64,000 nucleotides of DNA from Hawksworthiomyces lignivorus (lineage: Eukaryota; Ascomycota; Sordariomycetes; Ophiostomatales; Ophiostomataceae). Within the stretch, counting starts at the first letter, position 1, and each line of letters begins with the position of its first letter. Of the stretch, positions 3,981 through 27,543 are shown piece by piece. Under the pieces are notes generated by a model that saw only the letters and a program-made list of their open reading frames with translations, ran no database searches and had not been told where the DNA came from. The position numbers and the translations under genes are program-made. Location: assembly GCA_002917075.1 (NCBI GenBank), contig NTMA01000058.1, positions 62,001 through 126,000 of the forward strand. Direction: 5' to 3'.

Positions 3981-5783
3981 CGCAAAAGAAGGGAGATTTT
4001 TTTTTACTGGAATTTATGATGTGCTATTGTTATGTCTATCCGATTCTCTTGCGTCCCGAATGATATCCGATGCAAAGAAGCTTAAGTGACAAAAATAAGA
4101 GGATGGGAAGAAACTGATATGATGGCTCAATTTCATGAACGGAAATGGGATGAGAAAAGATAACGGTTCGCCTAAAAGAAGAAAGTTTATTTTAGATTCC
4201 CAGAAAGGGCTGGAATGCCAATAGGATCAATCACGTCACAGGGTGCCCAGTAACCATCGGAGAGACAAAAAAGAAATAGATGATGGTCTTGCGAAGTTCC
4301 TTTTACATTTAGCTTTCGTTCTCTAGCTCTCTAGATTGCCTCTCTGCTGCTGATCACAGCCTATTGTGTGCGCTACGTATATGGTGCTGATTGCTCTGAT
4401 TGCTCATGGGAAAACACGCCACCGAGGATGATGTAGCCAATACCTTTCTTTACACTGCATGCATATCATCAAGTAGGGAGAGGAGGAATTGCGCCTTCCA
4501 GACACTCCGGCTACGACGTCGAGCGCTACGACTTTCATGTGCAATGGAGATTGGATCGCTACTATGTTCTGTCTGTTGTGAGATCACGCCATGACGTCAC
4601 TTGCAACCTTCAGCAATTGGACCTCATTCGAGGTGCCGTAGCGTCTAGACCACAGCTTCGGTGGTCACCTAGTCGTCATCACTGCCGGCCTGCAGACGGC
4701 TCTGGCGCCAATCTTACGTATTCGCTGCATGTACTGTTCACACTATAGTGACGCTTGACGTTTGACGCTGATAGCAGCGAGGGAAGTCACCAAGCATGTG
4801 ATGTCACGTCTATGACAGCGGCACTTTCCTGACCTACAAACGAACACATGACCCATCACGTGTATGACAAAGCAGACTCAGATGCCTGTGATCTGAAGAG
4901 AGCTGCAGGTACGCCGTATCAGAGAACCAAACGCAGTTTTTAAAACTGGCGCAAATTCCATTCCAATTGGAGCCAGGCAGACTCCGTATTTTACATGGTA
5001 AAACTGCAACAGATGCTAACATACGAAGGTGGTCCATGCTCCGGGGGACCTCACCTCAGGCATCAGTTAACCGCCGACGCTTTAACGGCTTGCTGATTTG
5101 GGCCCCACCTTCCTATTATTGCTTTCTGCCTCACGCTAAGGCTCAGCATCGTCAAATTTATTAGCACAGCCCTACGATATTAAGATTGGTGGCCCGGGCC
5201 TCCACACTGCAAATCTTTACCTATGACTCCTGCGGCGAGGCACGAAAGGAAATCTGCCAACAATCTCCCAAACGCAGGAGTCGAAAAGAGGATAGAGAGT
5301 CTTTGTGACTGGCTGCTGCGCCGCGGGCCTAGGAAACCGCGTGCTTTATTGCCTTTTTGCCGCCGTTGAGTCACCCTAACCCTACTCCTTACAGGGCCTC
5401 GCTGCTGTGAGACAGGGATTGAGGCCAACGCCTGGCAATCTAAACCGTCTAGTCTTGCATCTAACCTCGCGAGGCCAAAAAATTAGCAGGGTCTATATTG
5501 TTTGACTCTCTTGCTCTTTCAGAAAATCATTTATATACTCTACTATTTCGCCGTCGAAAAATTTCGTTCAGCATCAAAGATACCAAAGATACATTGCCGC
5601 CAGTGCGTCTGTCTTTGTCTGCGCCAGACTGAGATATCACGAGTCTACCTGTTCCTTTATATTTGCGGAGCGGTTTTATCATAGGCTACATAGACTTTAT
5701 CTCATCGCCTGCTCAAAGTACCTTTGGTTTCTTTACACCTAACTGCATTTTAGAGGCAGCAGACCCCACAATATCTTATCACC
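3981..5783. other. Divergent intergenic/promoter region between the ISH1-like gene and TRL1
   Basis: About 1.8 kb without a supportable gene. The ISH1-like gene leaves to the left and the tRNA ligase to the right, so both promoters lie here. Notable content is a TGACGTCA palindrome and a group of TGACG half-sites between 4590 and 4870. The stretch before 5784 is AT- and pyrimidine-rich and looks like a 5' UTR. Confidence 0.5.
4592..4599. promoter_or_regulatory. CRE-like palindrome TGACGTCA
   Basis: A perfect 8-bp TGACGTCA, the binding sequence of Atf1/CREB-type bZIP factors, lies about 610 bp upstream of the ISH1-like start. Three TGACG half-sites follow at 4749-4753, 4756-4760 and 4763-4767. 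Fission yeast ish1 is known to be induced through the stress MAPK-Atf1 pathway, so the placement is suggestive. Binding is not shown by sequence alone. Confidence 0.45.
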
Positions 5784-8318
5784 ATGGGTGACGTGCAGAC
5801 TGGCGAGGCTGCCACAGGCGCTGCAGTCTCTGTGGAGCCTCAGGCCCTTCCCAAGGCGCCATACAAGCCCCAGGATACTGGAGTCGTGGCCCAGATGGCA
5901 CGAAGCTTAGAAGATGCCCTCAAGGCAAAGAAGAAGTCCAAATTGGGGGTCCGGAAAACACGCTTCAGCGTCGAGAACTCTGAGGAGGGCTACCATGTCG
6001 ACTCGTGGAAATTCAACGACTGGGACTACAAGCGGCCGGACCTGCCCTCGTACGCACGGGGTCTCTTCACGACCAAGAATAGATATGGGCAGCACGAGAT
6101 TGCAGTTCGCGGCTACGACAAATTTTTCAACGTGAACGAGGTCCAGGACACCCGGTGGGAGAACATTGAGACTCGCACTCGCGGGCCCTATGAGATTACG
6201 CTAAAGGAGAACGGCTGCATCATCTTTGTTTCTGGCCTAGACGACGACACGCTGCTTGTGTGCAGCAAGCACTCCACCGGTGACCGCGGCGATATTCAGC
6301 TGAGCCACTCCAGCGCTGGCGAGGCCCGTCTCGAGGAGCAGCTGGAGCGCCTGGGCAAGACGAAGCAGGACCTCGCGCGCGAGCTACGCTCCCGGAACGT
6401 CACTGCGGTGTGCGAGCTCTGCGACGACACGTTTGAGGAGCACATTCTAGCCTACGGCCCGGAAAAAGCTGGCCTCTACCTGCACGGCATCAATCTCAAC
6501 GTGCCCGAGTTCAGCACGTACCCGAGCGTGCTGGTGCAGGATTTTGCACGGCAATGGGGCTTCCGCCAGACCGACCTGATCATCATCGAGGACATTGCCG
6601 AGGTGCGGAAATTCCTCGAGGAAGTAGCGGAGACGGGCGCACACGACGGCCGCGACGTCGAGGGGTTTGTGATTCGGTGTCAGATGTCGCCGAACCCCGG
6701 CTCTGCTCCATACCAAGACTGGTTCTTCAAGTACAAGTTTGAGGAGCCGTACCTCATGTACAGAATGTGGCGCGAGTGCACCAAGGCGCTGATCATGGGG
6801 CGCACGCCAAAATACAACAAGCACGAGGCCATCACGCAGGAATACCTAATGTACGCGCGCAAGCGCATTGCTGCGGATCCCAAGCTGGGACAGCAGTACA
6901 ACCGGAATCACGGCATCATCCAACTTCGCGACGACTTCCTGGAGTTTAAGAATCTCAAGGGAGCCGACGCGGCAAACTTTGACGCGCTGTTCGGCGGCAC
7001 GACCAAGACGGAGGTCACCAAGGACGTGATCCTGGTGCCCATCGCCACGCTCGGCTGCGGGAAGACGACGATCGCGGTCGCGCTTAGCCAGCTGTTCGAC
7101 TACGGCCACGTGCAGAACGACAACATCACGGGCACCAAGCGGCCGCCGCGGTTCACGAAAATGGTGCTCGACCAGCTGCAGGAGCACAAGGCGGTGGTGG
7201 CGGACCGAAACAACGCGCAGCGGCACGAGCGGAAGCAGATTCTCACGGACGTCAAGATTCACAAGACCGGGATCCAGATGGTGGCGCTGAACTTTGTGCA
7301 CGACGACATAGACGCCATCCGCGCGGTGACCCGCGAGCGCGTGTTTGCGCGCGGCGACAACCACCAGACCATCCGCGCGGCGGCCGAGCCGGAAAAGGTC
7401 AAGGGCATCATGGACGGATTCCTCAACCGGTTTGAGCGGTGTGACGTGTCGCGCCAGCCCGACGACGCGTTCGACGCCGTGATCGACCTGGACCCAACGG
7501 CCGGCAGCCGCGCCAACCTAGAAAAGGTCATCCGCGAGCTGCACCAGCTCTACCCGAACTTTATGCCCGAGATCCCGTCTGCCGAGGCGATGGATGCCGC
7601 CGTGGAGAAGGCCATCGACAGCTACGACCCGAAGCTGCGGCACACGCTCGTGGACCGCGGCGGCCGCGACAACAGCTCGGGCTACCAGCAGCAGCAGCAG
7701 TCGACGAAGCCGCAGAAGGCAGGGAAGAAGAGGCCCTTGGAGTACATGGCGGTGCACGTCGCGGCCCAGGACGTCAATGCGCAGCTGGAGCGGGCGTTCA
7801 AGGACCGGCCGCCGGCTGAGGCGCGCTTCTACAAGCAGCTGCTGCAGACGCGCCGCGTGCAGCCGACGTTCCACGTGACGCTGATGCACCGGGCCGGCGC
7901 CAAGGAGCGCCCGGAGCTGTGGGAGCGGTACGTGCGGCTGCACGCGGAGGCGGAGGCGGCCACGGGGGGCGGCGCGATCAACACCACGCCGGAGCTTGGC
8001 AAGATCGACGTGCAGCTCGAGCGTGTCGTGTTCGACAGCCGGCTCATGGCGCTGGTGGTGCGGCTGGTGGACAAGAGCGGCGATGCGGGCGCCGTCGCAG
8101 CCGGGGACGACGCGGCCGGCAGCGGATGGGTCTGCGTGAACCGGGTCTCGCACATCACCGTCGGCACGCGCGACGACGCCGTCAAGCCCAAGGAGAGCAA
8201 CGACCTCCTGGCGCGCTGGCTGGACGAGGGCTCAACAGAGGCGAACGGCCTCTTGGACATTCCTATCGAAGGCCGGCCGCTGCTGCCGGGCGTGGTCCGC
8301 GGCGTGCTGTCTCGCTGA
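5784..8318 (+). CDS. TRL1: Fungal tRNA ligase
   Basis: Single-exon gene of 844 aa with an ATG in good context (CACCATGG). Fungal-type tRNA ligase has three catalytic modules, and all are visible. The adenylyltransferase domain has the nucleotidylated lysine at K141 in LKENGCIIF. The central polynucleotide kinase has a P-loop LGCGKTT with K427. The C-terminal 2H-type cyclic phosphodiesterase has its two motifs HVTLM (H697) and HITVG (H790). The enzyme heals and seals tRNA exon ends after intron excision by the tRNA splicing endonuclease, leaving a 2'-phosphate junction, and joins HAC1-type mRNA exons in the unfolded-protein response. Length fits the family (yeast 827 aa). A Q-rich linker near residues 634-640 separates kinase and phosphodiesterase. 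The gene is convergent with the tryptophan gene downstream. Confidence 0.97.
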   Translation: MGDVQTGEAATGAAVSVEPQALPKAPYKPQDTGVVAQMARSLEDALKAKKKSKLGVRKTRFSVENSEEGYHVDSWKFNDWDYKRPDLPSYARGLFTTKNRYGQHEIAVRGYDKFFNVNEVQDTRWENIETRTRGPYEITLKENGCIIFVSGLDDDTLLVCSKHSTGDRGDIQLSHSSAGEARLEEQLERLGKTKQDLARELRSRNVTAVCELCDDTFEEHILAYGPEKAGLYLHGINLNVPEFSTYPSVLVQDFARQWGFRQTDLIIIEDIAEVRKFLEEVAETGAHDGRDVEGFVIRCQMSPNPGSAPYQDWFFKYKFEEPYLMYRMWRECTKALIMGRTPKYNKHEAITQEYLMYARKRIAADPKLGQQYNRNHGIIQLRDDFLEFKNLKGADAANFDALFGGTTKTEVTKDVILVPIATLGCGKTTIAVALSQLFDYGHVQNDNITGTKRPPRFTKMVLDQLQEHKAVVADRNNAQRHERKQILTDVKIHKTGIQMVALNFVHDDIDAIRAVTRERVFARGDNHQTIRAAAEPEKVKGIMDGFLNRFERCDVSRQPDDAFDAVIDLDPTAGSRANLEKVIRELHQLYPNFMPEIPSAEAMDAAVEKAIDSYDPKLRHTLVDRGGRDNSSGYQQQQQSTKPQKAGKKRPLEYMAVHVAAQDVNAQLERAFKDRPPAEARFYKQLLQTRRVQPTFHVTLMHRAGAKERPELWERYVRLHAEAEAATGGGAINTTPELGKIDVQLERVVFDSRLMALVVRLVDKSGDAGAVAAGDDAAGSGWVCVNRVSHITVGTRDDAVKPKESNDLLARWLDEGSTEANGLLDIPIEGRPLLPGVVRGVLSR

Positions 8319-21120: not shown

Positions 21121-21684
21121 GGTGACGAGAACCCCGAGCGGGGCCTGAAATTGCATCACTGCTCGGAGAATAAGAGCATCTAGGACGGCAAGGTTGCAAC
21201 GAGCTCTGTGCGACGTACGATGGCTGAGATTTTCCACGGCCGAGCTAGGCAACTAACTTGCAATCGCTGCCAAAGAAGTGTATATAAAAGCGCTCATAAA
21301 ACCAACAGCCAACAAGTTCGTCACATCTGAACCCTGCAAAACACAAATAAGACCGTCTTGTCAGCTTCCGTTTGTAGAAGGGAATCAAAAATAAAAATTT
21401 AAGTATAAAAATAAAAATAAAAATAAAAATTAAATTGCCGCTGTGACTCAGCGGAGTGTGAGAACATGACAGTTCTACGAATAGGAGATCTAACTGATGA
21501 AGAAAAAGAGTCGGTTCAGGACCATCTACATATTTTCAAGGTAGTCCTATTTCAAGATGGCCGCACCCTAGTAAGGTTTACGTAGATTTTTGAGAGAATT
21601 TTCCATGCCACAAGCGAGACTTGCGGTCAGACTTCAAAGACGCTGAGGAGCGCCCGGCATCTCCAACAATGGGAACTAAAACAT
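19322..21684. other. Gene-poor low-complexity region upstream of the kinase
   Basis: About 2.4 kb with no supportable protein gene. It is purine-rich (GAGAGG/GGAAGG) from about 19780 to 20640, which would be pyrimidine-rich in the kinase 5' leader on the other strand. A CATCTCTCT tandem followed by a T-run of about 34 occupies 21060-21120, and an A-rich (AAAATA)n run lies near 21386-21430. It ends at the tRNA gene. Confidence 0.5.
21060..21120. repeat. CATCTCTCT tandem plus long T-tract
   Basis: Three to four copies of TCTCTCATC are followed by about 34 consecutive T. Simple-sequence DNA with no coding potential. Confidence 0.85.
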
Positions 21685-21827
21685 GCCCGGTTAGCTCAAT
21701 CGGTAGAGCGTGAGACTCTTAATCTCAAGGTTGCGGGTTAGTAACAGTCCTGGAAGCCCATCTCGGAGCGTCCATGCGAACAGCTTCACTAACATAACCC
21801 TAACAGGTTCGACCCCCGCATCGGGCT
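21685..21827 (+). tRNA. tRNA-Lys(CTT) interrupted by a 70-nt insertion in the T-stem
   Basis: Exonic parts are 21685-21736 (tRNA positions 1-52) and 21807-21827 (positions 53-73). Together they form a perfect 73-nt tRNA: acceptor stem GCCCGGT/ATCGGGC, D-arm GCTC...GAGC, anticodon stem TGAGA/TCTCA with loop CTCTTAA and anticodon CTT (21718-21720), variable loop AGGTT, T-stem GCGGG/CCCGC with loop TTCGACC, and discriminator T73. No intron sits at the canonical site after position 37. The A box (about TAGCTCAATCGG) is intact. The B box GGTTCGACCCC (21806-21816) is also intact because the insertion ends in G. It is therefore transcribable by Pol III in principle, with A-B spacing enlarged by 70 nt. 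The insertion could be a spliceable intron or could make this a pseudogene; exact restoration of a canonical tRNA favours the first. Confidence 0.88.
21737..21806 (+). other. Non-canonical tRNA intron with spliceosomal-type signals
   Basis: Seventy nt starting GTTAGT and ending CCCTAACAG. A CTAAC branch-like element sits at 21789-21793, its branch A 14 nt from the 3' end. Length and signals match the mRNA introns of neighbouring genes. GGTT occurs at both boundaries, so the exact junction could slide by up to four bases; only the GT-AG placement gives splice consensus. The first five bases (GTTAG) are complementary to CTAAC at 21800-21804, so the ends can pair into a hairpin projecting from the T-arm. 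GGGTTA (21735-21740) can also pair with TAACCC (21795-21800). Confidence 0.7.
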
Positions 21828-21875
21828 CAAATCCTGATGCGTCTCTTCAAAGAGGCACTTCGAACTCACCATCAA

Positions 21876-21884
21876 TTTTTTTTT
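21876..21884 (+). terminator. Candidate Pol III terminator (T9)
   Basis: A run of nine T begins about 49 nt after the tRNA 3' end and is the first strong T-tract downstream. RNA polymerase III terminates at such tracts. Confidence 0.55.
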
Positions 21885-25649: not shown

Positions 25650-27543
25650 ATGGAGTACCTCATCCGCTTCAGCCAGACACACGACACCTTTCGGATCGCG
25701 GAGATTGAGGCTCTGGCGATCATTGAGAATGTAGAGCTAGAGATTCTCTCCTATATTAAGGAGGTTTGTATACGGATGCCCCGATACTATGAATGTTTTA
25801 AATAAAATAAAAAATGAGCCTCTCCGCTCACAGCAGGCAAACAGTCCCCCTTCTGCATCGTCCGGCTGCCCAATGATGAGGCGGCGGCGAAGCTCATGCG
25901 CCGCTCGCTGCTGGCGCAGTCCATCCACAGCTTTTGGGGCCAGGGCGACACGCTGCCCGAGTTCCACGCGGACATCAGGCGGCGCGCGGCGCCTCTGTGG
26001 CCGCCGTACGCTGAGTCGTCGTTCAAATTCGAGGTGGACTCGTTCCGGGGCAAGCGGTCGGCGGCAGCGCGGCTGGCGCTGATCGACAGCCTGGCCGACG
26101 TGCTGCCGCTGACGGGGCCCATCGACATGCGCGACCCGGCGCTGTTCCTGACCATCTTTGAGCACTGGGCCTTTGACGCCGTGCAGGCGGCGCGGCCGGA
26201 CCCGGAGCGCTACTACTTAGGCCGCTTCGTGGCGGGCACGGCGCGCGGCGGCGGCGCCCGCGCCGCCACCGCCGCCTTCGACCTCAAGAAGCGCCGCTAC
26301 ATTGCCACAACTAGCATGGACGCCGAGCTGTCGCTTCTGACGGCCAACCTGGCCTTGGCCGCGCCCGGCAAGCTCTTCTACGACCCCTTTGTCGGCACCG
26401 GCAGCTTCCCCCTCGCCGCCGCCCACTGGGGCGCCGTCGCCTGGGGCAGCGACATTGACGGCCGCGCTGTGCGCGGCGCAGCCGCTGGCATCAACGGCAC
26501 CGGCGGCACCGGCGGCAGCCGCACCGGCCGCTGCGACGTCCGCGGCAACTTTGAGCAGTACGGCCTGCTGTCCGGCTTCGGCGACGTCTTCACCGCCGAC
26601 CTCACGCACGCGCCGCTGCGGGTGGCCCGCGTCGGCGTCGGCGCCGGCGACACCAGCGCAGACCGCTGGATCGACGGCATCATCTGCGACCCGCCCTACG
26701 GCATCCGCGAGGGCCCGCGCGTGCTCGGCGTCCGCAACCCGGCCAAGACGCCCTGGGTGCTGGAGGCCGGGCGCAGGATGTACAAGTGCGTGGCCGTGCC
26801 TCAAGATGAGCAGAACCACAGCTCGATTCTTTTTCTTGATCTAACCCGTCTCTAGAGATCCGACGTATCTCCCACCGAAGCAGCCGTATAGCTTCTTGGC
26901 CCTGCTGGACGACCTGCTGTGGTTCGCGGCGAACACGCTCGTCGACGGCGGCCGCCTGGGCTTCTGGATGCCCACGGCCAACGACGAGGCCCTGGAGCTG
27001 CCGGTCCCCACACACCCGTGCCTGGTCCAGGTGTCGATGTGCACGCAAGTGTTTAACAGATGTAGGTCACGCGCCTTCTCTCTTTTTCTGCTTTCTACCA
27101 TATTTTGTTTGAATTATTTTTTTTCTGACCTGGTCACAAAAGGGTCCCGTCGCCTCATCACGTACCGGCGAATACCAGACGCCGAAGTGGACCCCGAGGC
27201 ACTTGCCCGGGCTGTGGCAGCCGCCGCCGAAACGCCGAAGCTGATGGGCCAGACGGCCAACGATCTCAACCCGTTCCGGCGAGATTACTTTCGCAAATTT
27301 GAAGTACCAGAGGGTGCATCTCCAACAGCCGCAACAACAGTTGCTGCGATAGAGGCGATAGCTGAAGCACTGGCAGCAGACGATGCCAGCACACCTCAGG
27401 ATGTGCCGCCGCCGGCAGGCGACGGCAAGTCATCGATAGAGTCGGCTGCATCAGCAGCATCCGAACTGCTAAATAAGATACCGGAAGCTGGAGCCAAGGT
27501 ACCATTAATACCAGAGCCCGCATCGCAGCCAGAGCCCACCTGA
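25650..27543 (+). CDS. TRM11: tRNA (guanine10-N2)-methyltransferase catalytic subunit
   Basis: Four exons: 25650-25763, 25845-26785, 26856-27061 and 27143-27543; 553 aa. Trm11 with Trm112 makes m2G10 in tRNAs. The N-terminus MEYLIRFSQTHDTFRIAEIE and SPFCIVRLPND correspond to the THUMP-like region, followed by SIHSFWGQG. The methyltransferase fold shows the SAM-binding motif I DPFVGTGSF (from D218), an acidic GSDIDGR strand end, and the catalytic motif DPPYGIREG (D320), with YLPPKQPYSF and the WSRRLITYRR segment spanning the last splice. The first intron boundaries were chosen to give SYIKE/SPFCIV, matching the family spacing; an alternative (GTATAC donor with CACAG acceptor) would add five residues. 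The last intron is 81 nt without a stop, so retention is frame-neutral. The C-terminal 90 residues are Ala/Pro-rich and disordered. Confidence 0.95.

Follow-up and report, generated by a model that had tools for sequence, protein, structure and literature searches.

Introns in transfer RNA genes are the textbook case of splicing that is independent of the spliceosome, the intron being cut by a protein endonuclease. In nuclear genes their canonical location is 37/38, and only a few places are known where tRNA introns lie elsewhere. In the red alga Cyanidioschyzon merolae an intron is found in the T-arm, in archaea other non-canonical sites of the tRNA are occupied, and these ectopic introns have a bulge-helix-bulge (PMC9602550, PMC3978253). 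The second paper also describes ectopic tRNA introns in the nucleomorph of Guillardia theta, many of which lack a defined bulge-helix-bulge (PMC3978253). As for introns of the mRNA type in small RNAs, they are known in U6 of the fission yeast S. pombe (PMC10484740), and a paper of 2017 knew of no small structured RNAs other than U3 and U6 that often contain an intron (PMC5832005). According to the same paper, intron-bearing and intronless paralogues of the fungal U3 snoRNA gene exist together in one genome.

Here we consider a tRNA-Lys(CUU) gene at positions 21685-21827 of the window, by which we mean the whole stretch of 64,000 nucleotides that was analysed. Eight nuclear tRNA-Lys(CUU) genes were found in this fungus and, judging from sequence, it is quite likely that three of them contain a U2-type intron in the T-arm, and that the spliceosome removes it from a Pol III transcript. 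When compared with the systems above, the T-arm location is shared with Cyanidioschyzon, but no bulge-helix-bulge is common to the copies here. Guillardia theta also has ectopic tRNA introns; its host compartment, however, is a nucleomorph instead of a fungal nucleus, and spliceosomal signals, which are present here, go unmentioned in the accessible part of PMC3978253. The canonical 37/38 introns likewise reside in nuclear tRNA genes, but both the site and the signals differ. The U6 introns of S. pombe and other fungi are alike in being of the mRNA type, of similar size and located in a small Pol III RNA, while their host is a component of the spliceosome and not a tRNA. The B box is also placed differently, in exon 2 of the tRNA-Lys gene, whereas each U6 intron of the present genome holds a B-box-like GTTCGAATC. 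The fungal U3 genes resemble our case as small structured RNA genes with intron-bearing and intronless forms in one genome, but their host is a snoRNA. The present case joins the spliceosomal introns of Pol III RNAs with the ectopic introns of tRNAs, a combination that we found described nowhere; among the titles and abstract openings of open-licence papers that were listed, none reports that a tRNA gene has a spliceosomal intron.

If this reading is true, the spliceosome can accept a tRNA precursor made by Pol III and helps to make a transfer RNA, and the nucleus of a fungus joins the few places with tRNA introns outside 37/38. It would also account for the mis-scoring of such genes by tRNA programs, and the supply of tRNA-Lys(CUU), which decodes AAG, would be tied to splicing capacity. 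The subject bears on the gain of introns in small structured RNAs, which in fungi has so far been described for U6 and U3. Because intact and interrupted genes for the same tRNA share one genome, the question is directly testable.

Gene copies and the inserted sequence

The gene in the window, on the forward strand, is interrupted by 70 nt at 21737-21806. It was found that joining exon 1 (21685-21736, tRNA positions 1-52) to exon 2 (21807-21827, positions 53-73) gives a 73-nt tRNA that is identical in every letter to five uninterrupted genes of the same genome. The first-pass annotation had the coordinates and letters of this locus right, and its statement that excision of 21737-21806 leaves a proper 73-nt tRNA-Lys agrees exactly with the intact copies; the insert is also 70 nt long, starts with GTTAGT and ends with CAG, as it described. 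The spliced product would be a standard tRNA with a CUU anticodon. Its letters are those of the intact genes, which score 70.3 bits with the Rfam tRNA model, compared to 30.8-31.1 bits for the interrupted genes (30.8 for the window copy).

The genome comprises 43.7 Mb in 191 contigs. The coatomer beta protein encoded in the window shares 89-91% identity with its counterparts in Niveomyces insectorum RCEF 264, Sporothrix species and Grosmannia clavigera, which makes the fungus a sordariomycete and most likely a member of the Ophiostomatales; Sporothrix is classified in that order and Niveomyces in Hypocreales. When the 5' part of tRNA-Lys(CUU) was searched for in the whole genome, by DNA similarity and by pattern, both ways gave eight copies. 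They are found on eight contigs, and 73 of 73 exon letters are identical in all of them. The insert is present in three copies (L001, L002 and L003) and absent from the other five (L004-L008). It lies between positions 52 and 53 in each of the three, with 70 nt in the window copy L001 (contig C146), 66 nt in L002 (contig C181) and 70 nt in L003 (contig C57, 1438-1507, minus strand). The first-pass annotation had proposed to look for the same insertion in other copies, and L002 and L003 carry it. In a relaxed tRNA search (64 rows; 63 of the 1084 first-look candidates were scored), no row other than the three interrupted genes scores below 49 bits; this search covers part of the tRNA genes, and further interrupted ones may exist. 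Prokaryote and viral contigs yielded no relatives, which was to be expected of fungal DNA.

ARAGORN models an anticodon-loop intron in all three interrupted genes. We rejected this placement and, with it, the canonical 37/38 site, because comparison with the five intact copies fixes the insert site at 52/53 (51/52 to 55/56 when all registers of the window copy are counted). Within this range the junction of the window copy is ambiguous over five registers, and GT-AG selects 52/53 while 53/54 fits equally well. The 52/53 junction given by the first-pass annotation holds as the choice made by GT-AG, but not as the sole register. Also, ARAGORN labels L078 as a Lys(CTT) gene with an 18-nt intron, which would be a ninth copy. 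By eye, however, its loop has CGT, its sequence does not resemble those of the eight, and it was left out of the tRNA-Lys(CUU) count.

The three inserts are homologous and not independent gains, those of L002 and L003 being 87% identical and that of the window copy more diverged. In genome searches (E<=10, very common words skipped) the window insert matches itself alone, and the L003 insert matches itself and L002. An origin as a dispersed repeat, which the first-pass annotation had raised, or as an introner was thus rejected for these two inserts, neither of which has copies at unrelated sites. A direct repeat is found at the junctions, GGTT in L001 and L002 and the 6-nt GGTTCG in L003. Such repeats would agree with an insertion that duplicated its target, so that the donor arose from the GTTCG of the T-loop, although they are short and partly demanded by the splice signals.

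Splice signals, mRNA introns and U6

The putative 5' splice site of the window copy is GTTAGT at 21737-21742; L002 has the same letters and L003 has GTTCGT, and a GTNNGT-like donor is found in all three. The branch-site motif CTAAC at 21789-21793 has its counterpart in TTAAC, equally far from the intron end in L002 and L003, which gives a YTRAC motif with 13 nt between it and the intron end in each insert. The 3' splice site at 21804-21806 follows YAG and is CAG in every copy. Between L001 and L002, 13 of the 14 signal columns are kept, versus 25 of the 52 others (48%; p=0.002), and between L001 and L003 the counts are 12 of 14 versus 21 of 52 (40%; p=0.003), while L002 and L003 are too alike for this test (p=0.26).

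GTTAGT alone is at chance level in the window, with 16 occurrences against 14.3 expected, and 36 of 100 shuffles reach 16. The full motif rule (GTNNGT plus YTRAC-N6-20-YAG) is matched by only 3 of the 255,700 segments of 66 or 70 nt on both strands of the window. They are the insert, a codon-supported mRNA intron at 26786 and a segment at 2258 on the minus strand that is also mRNA-intron-like. The genome-wide motif scan alone is not significant: it gave 6 matches, 4 of them in Lys genes, and a reversed control pattern gave 7. The two extra matches (C126 and C186) were rejected as T-arm-intron tRNAs, having no tRNA surroundings by eye; they look like chance because of the 7 control matches.

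For comparison, ten codon-supported mRNA introns were collected from 189 kb (62 stretches of the same genome), one of which (donor GTTATC) may be false. An ORF-joining search was discarded as too noisy (2548 candidates), and an earlier version of the codon score gave 16 candidates, among which likely and unlikely introns were mixed by eye. Since the selection demands a CTRAC branch motif, branch statistics would be circular for these introns, and the usable ones are donor, length and T-run. The ten introns are 68-125 nt long, half of them 68-73 nt. A GTNNGT donor occurs in 5 of 10 and a T at donor position +3 in 1 of 10. All three tRNA inserts have T at +3, and L003 also has C at +4. We therefore regard the insert donors as acceptable but not strong. 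The likeness to nearby mRNA introns that the first-pass annotation saw is real for size and acceptor but less close at the donor, where T at +3 is uncommon.

Pol III can be stopped by runs of T4. Such a run (T4 or longer) is found inside 8 of the 10 mRNA introns and in none of the five Pol III-type introns (3 tRNA, 2 U6; p=0.007), or in none of three when the tRNA inserts are taken alone (p=0.035). The longest T run is at most 2 in the three tRNA inserts and at most 3 in the two U6 introns. The absence of T4 fits transcription by Pol III, given that T4 runs can stop it, and the contrast is suggestive only, because the tRNA inserts are related and few.

U6 is an essential RNA and is classically transcribed by Pol III. 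With 47 of 2985 candidates scored, two U6 genes were over the cut-off (59.5 and 51.7 bits) and two further rows were below it. Both genes have an intron on the minus strand, 66 nt at 1569-1634 in L056 (GTAGGT...CTAAC...ACAG) and 67 nt at 1569-1635 in L057 (GTAAGT...CTGAC...AACAG). Exon 1 ends with GAAACGATA or GAAATGATA, the intron follows and then CAGAGAAG, and the spliced junction would read GATA directly followed by CAGAGAAG. Both genes match the Rfam model poorly upstream of CAGAGAAG, which we account for by the mRNA-type intron that directly precedes it. No intronless U6 gene was found among the scored candidates, and because U6 is essential there are strong grounds, from sequence, to infer that these introns are spliced. 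Therefore, with two U6 genes carrying mRNA-type introns, this lineage evidently splices Pol III transcripts. As for 5S rRNA, all 47 genes scored (of 1791 candidates; 46 over the cut-off) span the whole model in 117-127 bases and so have no intron-sized insertion, in a scan that could miss an interrupted 5S gene.

The predicted Pol III transcription unit

The interrupted genes have an A box, a B box and a T-run, and no T4 run in the insert. Upstream of the window copy, BLAST and an alignment of the eight copies delimit a conserved 5' leader (CTCCAACAATGGGAACTAAAACAT) at 21661-21684, likely the Pol III start region. The BLAST matches of the window copy with the other seven start 0-25 nt upstream of the tRNA, and the leader of the eight units starts near CAACAA. 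The A box starts at tRNA position 8 (21692), within exon 1. The B box GGTTCGACCCC occupies 21806-21816, and its first G is the last base of the intron. This terminal G of the intron completes the B box of the interrupted genes, which has the same 11 letters as that of the intact ones, in agreement with the first-pass annotation that it survives the insertion. The distance between the starts of the A and B boxes is 110-114 in the interrupted copies, greater than in the intact copies.

A long conserved trailer with a hairpin before the T-run is observed in all eight genes (21828-21884 in the window, and in the same place in L002-L008). In 36 of the 50 other nuclear tRNA genes that were looked at, a T4 run lies within 15 nt, and longer trailers also occur in several Phe, Arg and His tRNA genes. 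The hairpin (GTCTCT-TCAA-AGAGGC, 21841-21856) is predicted in all eight copies, with modest z-scores of -0.4 to -2.3. It has six standard pairs, G.U included, in seven copies and a shifted pairing in L003. When L001 and L002 are compared with the five intact copies, two of its pairs have been exchanged, C-G for U-A and the reverse. This speaks for maintenance of the interrupted units in their own right, though the exchange may be one old event. The conserved unit ends with a T9 run at 21876-21884, likely the Pol III terminator; a T run of 6-15 starts 43-53 nt past the tRNA in each of the eight genes.

Homology between the copies is mostly limited to the predicted transcript, and the loci beyond it are mostly unrelated. 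The exceptions are short matches in some pairs, several of them in T-rich stretches, and 105 nt at 72% that L001 and L003 share beyond the T-run. By downstream flank and leader L001 groups with L003, while by introns L002 groups with L003; these conflicting groupings hint at exchange between the interrupted copies. A TATATAAAAG box was also observed at 21281-21290, in intergenic sequence about 400 nt upstream of the tRNA, and TATATAAA does not occur within 600 nt upstream of any of the other seven tRNA-Lys(CUU) copies.

Precursor folds and competing explanations

In the predicted folds, each of the three precursors retains its acceptor, D and anticodon stems. The insert is enclosed by a T-stem of 4 pairs in the window copy and of 5 pairs in L002 and L003; in these two the first G of the intron replaces G53. 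The insert is thus predicted to enlarge the T-loop and to leave the stem unbroken, contrary to the first-pass annotation, which had the T-stem broken. The window precursor is predicted to form 6 pairs between the donor GUUAGU and ACUAAC at the branch site, a pairing not seen in the predicted folds of L002 and L003. In this model it might interfere with recognition and splicing, or do no more than place the two sites close to each other.

Removal by the spliceosome, already put forward by the first-pass annotation, is the favoured explanation, given the same site in three loci, the kept signals, the absence of T4, the lack of a common bulge-helix-bulge and the U6 genes with mRNA-type introns. 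Pol III would read from the leader across the tRNA, its intron and the trailer as far as the T-run, the U1 and U2 snRNPs would recognise GTTAGT and CTAAC, and two transesterifications would link position 52 to 53. A normal tRNA-Lys would be completed by RNase P, RNase Z and CCA addition, with end trimming either before or after splicing. On balance we think that the spliceosome acts here as a tRNA-processing enzyme, with part of the tRNA-Lys(CUU) spliced in the T-arm and the donor perhaps derived from a duplicated piece (GGTTCG) of the T-loop/B-box sequence of the tRNA itself. Against spliceosomal removal, the five intact copies could supply the tRNA unspliced, and the exon identity could stem from gene conversion.

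Both objections lead to the main rival, in which the three genes are disrupted copies that retain the insert and give no functional tRNA, while their exons are kept alike by conversion from the intact five. We consider this unlikely. The first-pass annotation had named several intact genes elsewhere, together with a lack of spliced reads, as the mark of a disrupted pseudogene, and the former part applies, as five intact genes exist. The drop in tRNA score from 70.3 to about 31 bits caused by the insert and the uncommon T at donor +3 are also consistent with disruption. However, the exons are identical despite introns, leaders and trailers that have drifted, and at the 87% intron identity of L002 and L003 the chance of 0 changes in 73 sites is 4e-5 without conversion. 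Conversion, in turn, would tend to remove the insert and to even out the trailers, which differ, and the splice signals, the B box and the absence of a T4 run are all kept.

It is less probable still that the tRNA splicing endonuclease excises the T-arm insert and Trl1 ligates the exons, as in the red alga and archaea, an option that the first-pass annotation had left beside the spliceosome. In its favour, the genome has two matches to the tRNA endonuclease family and, at 5754-8315 in the same window, a gene for the tRNA ligase Trl1; five further tRNA genes (L078, L083-L086) receive an anticodon-loop intron from ARAGORN. T-arm introns of Cyanidioschyzon with a bulge-helix-bulge also offer a precedent (PMC9602550). 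To evaluate this, a bulge-helix-bulge was taken to be a 4-bp central helix with a 3-nt bulge on either side, placed at the junctions, in the registers compatible with the mature tRNA. Over the 5 registers of L001, 5 of L002 and 7 of L003, the full central helix was found only once, as an all-G.U helix in one register of L003. Moreover, the GT...YTAAC...CAG layout is that of spliceosomal introns. Finally, that the interrupted units yield some RNA other than tRNA-Lys, for instance a tRNA-like 5' fragment that is retained, is hardly credible: the predicted precursor fold does keep all four stems (acceptor, D, anticodon and T) and merely has its T-loop enlarged by the insert, but exon 2 is perfectly conserved, T-loop included, and the window insert shares little with the other two beyond the splice signals.

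As a separate observation, the Trl1 of the window is of the fungal type with ligase, kinase and phosphodiesterase domains, and its gene lies about 13 kb from the interrupted tRNA gene.
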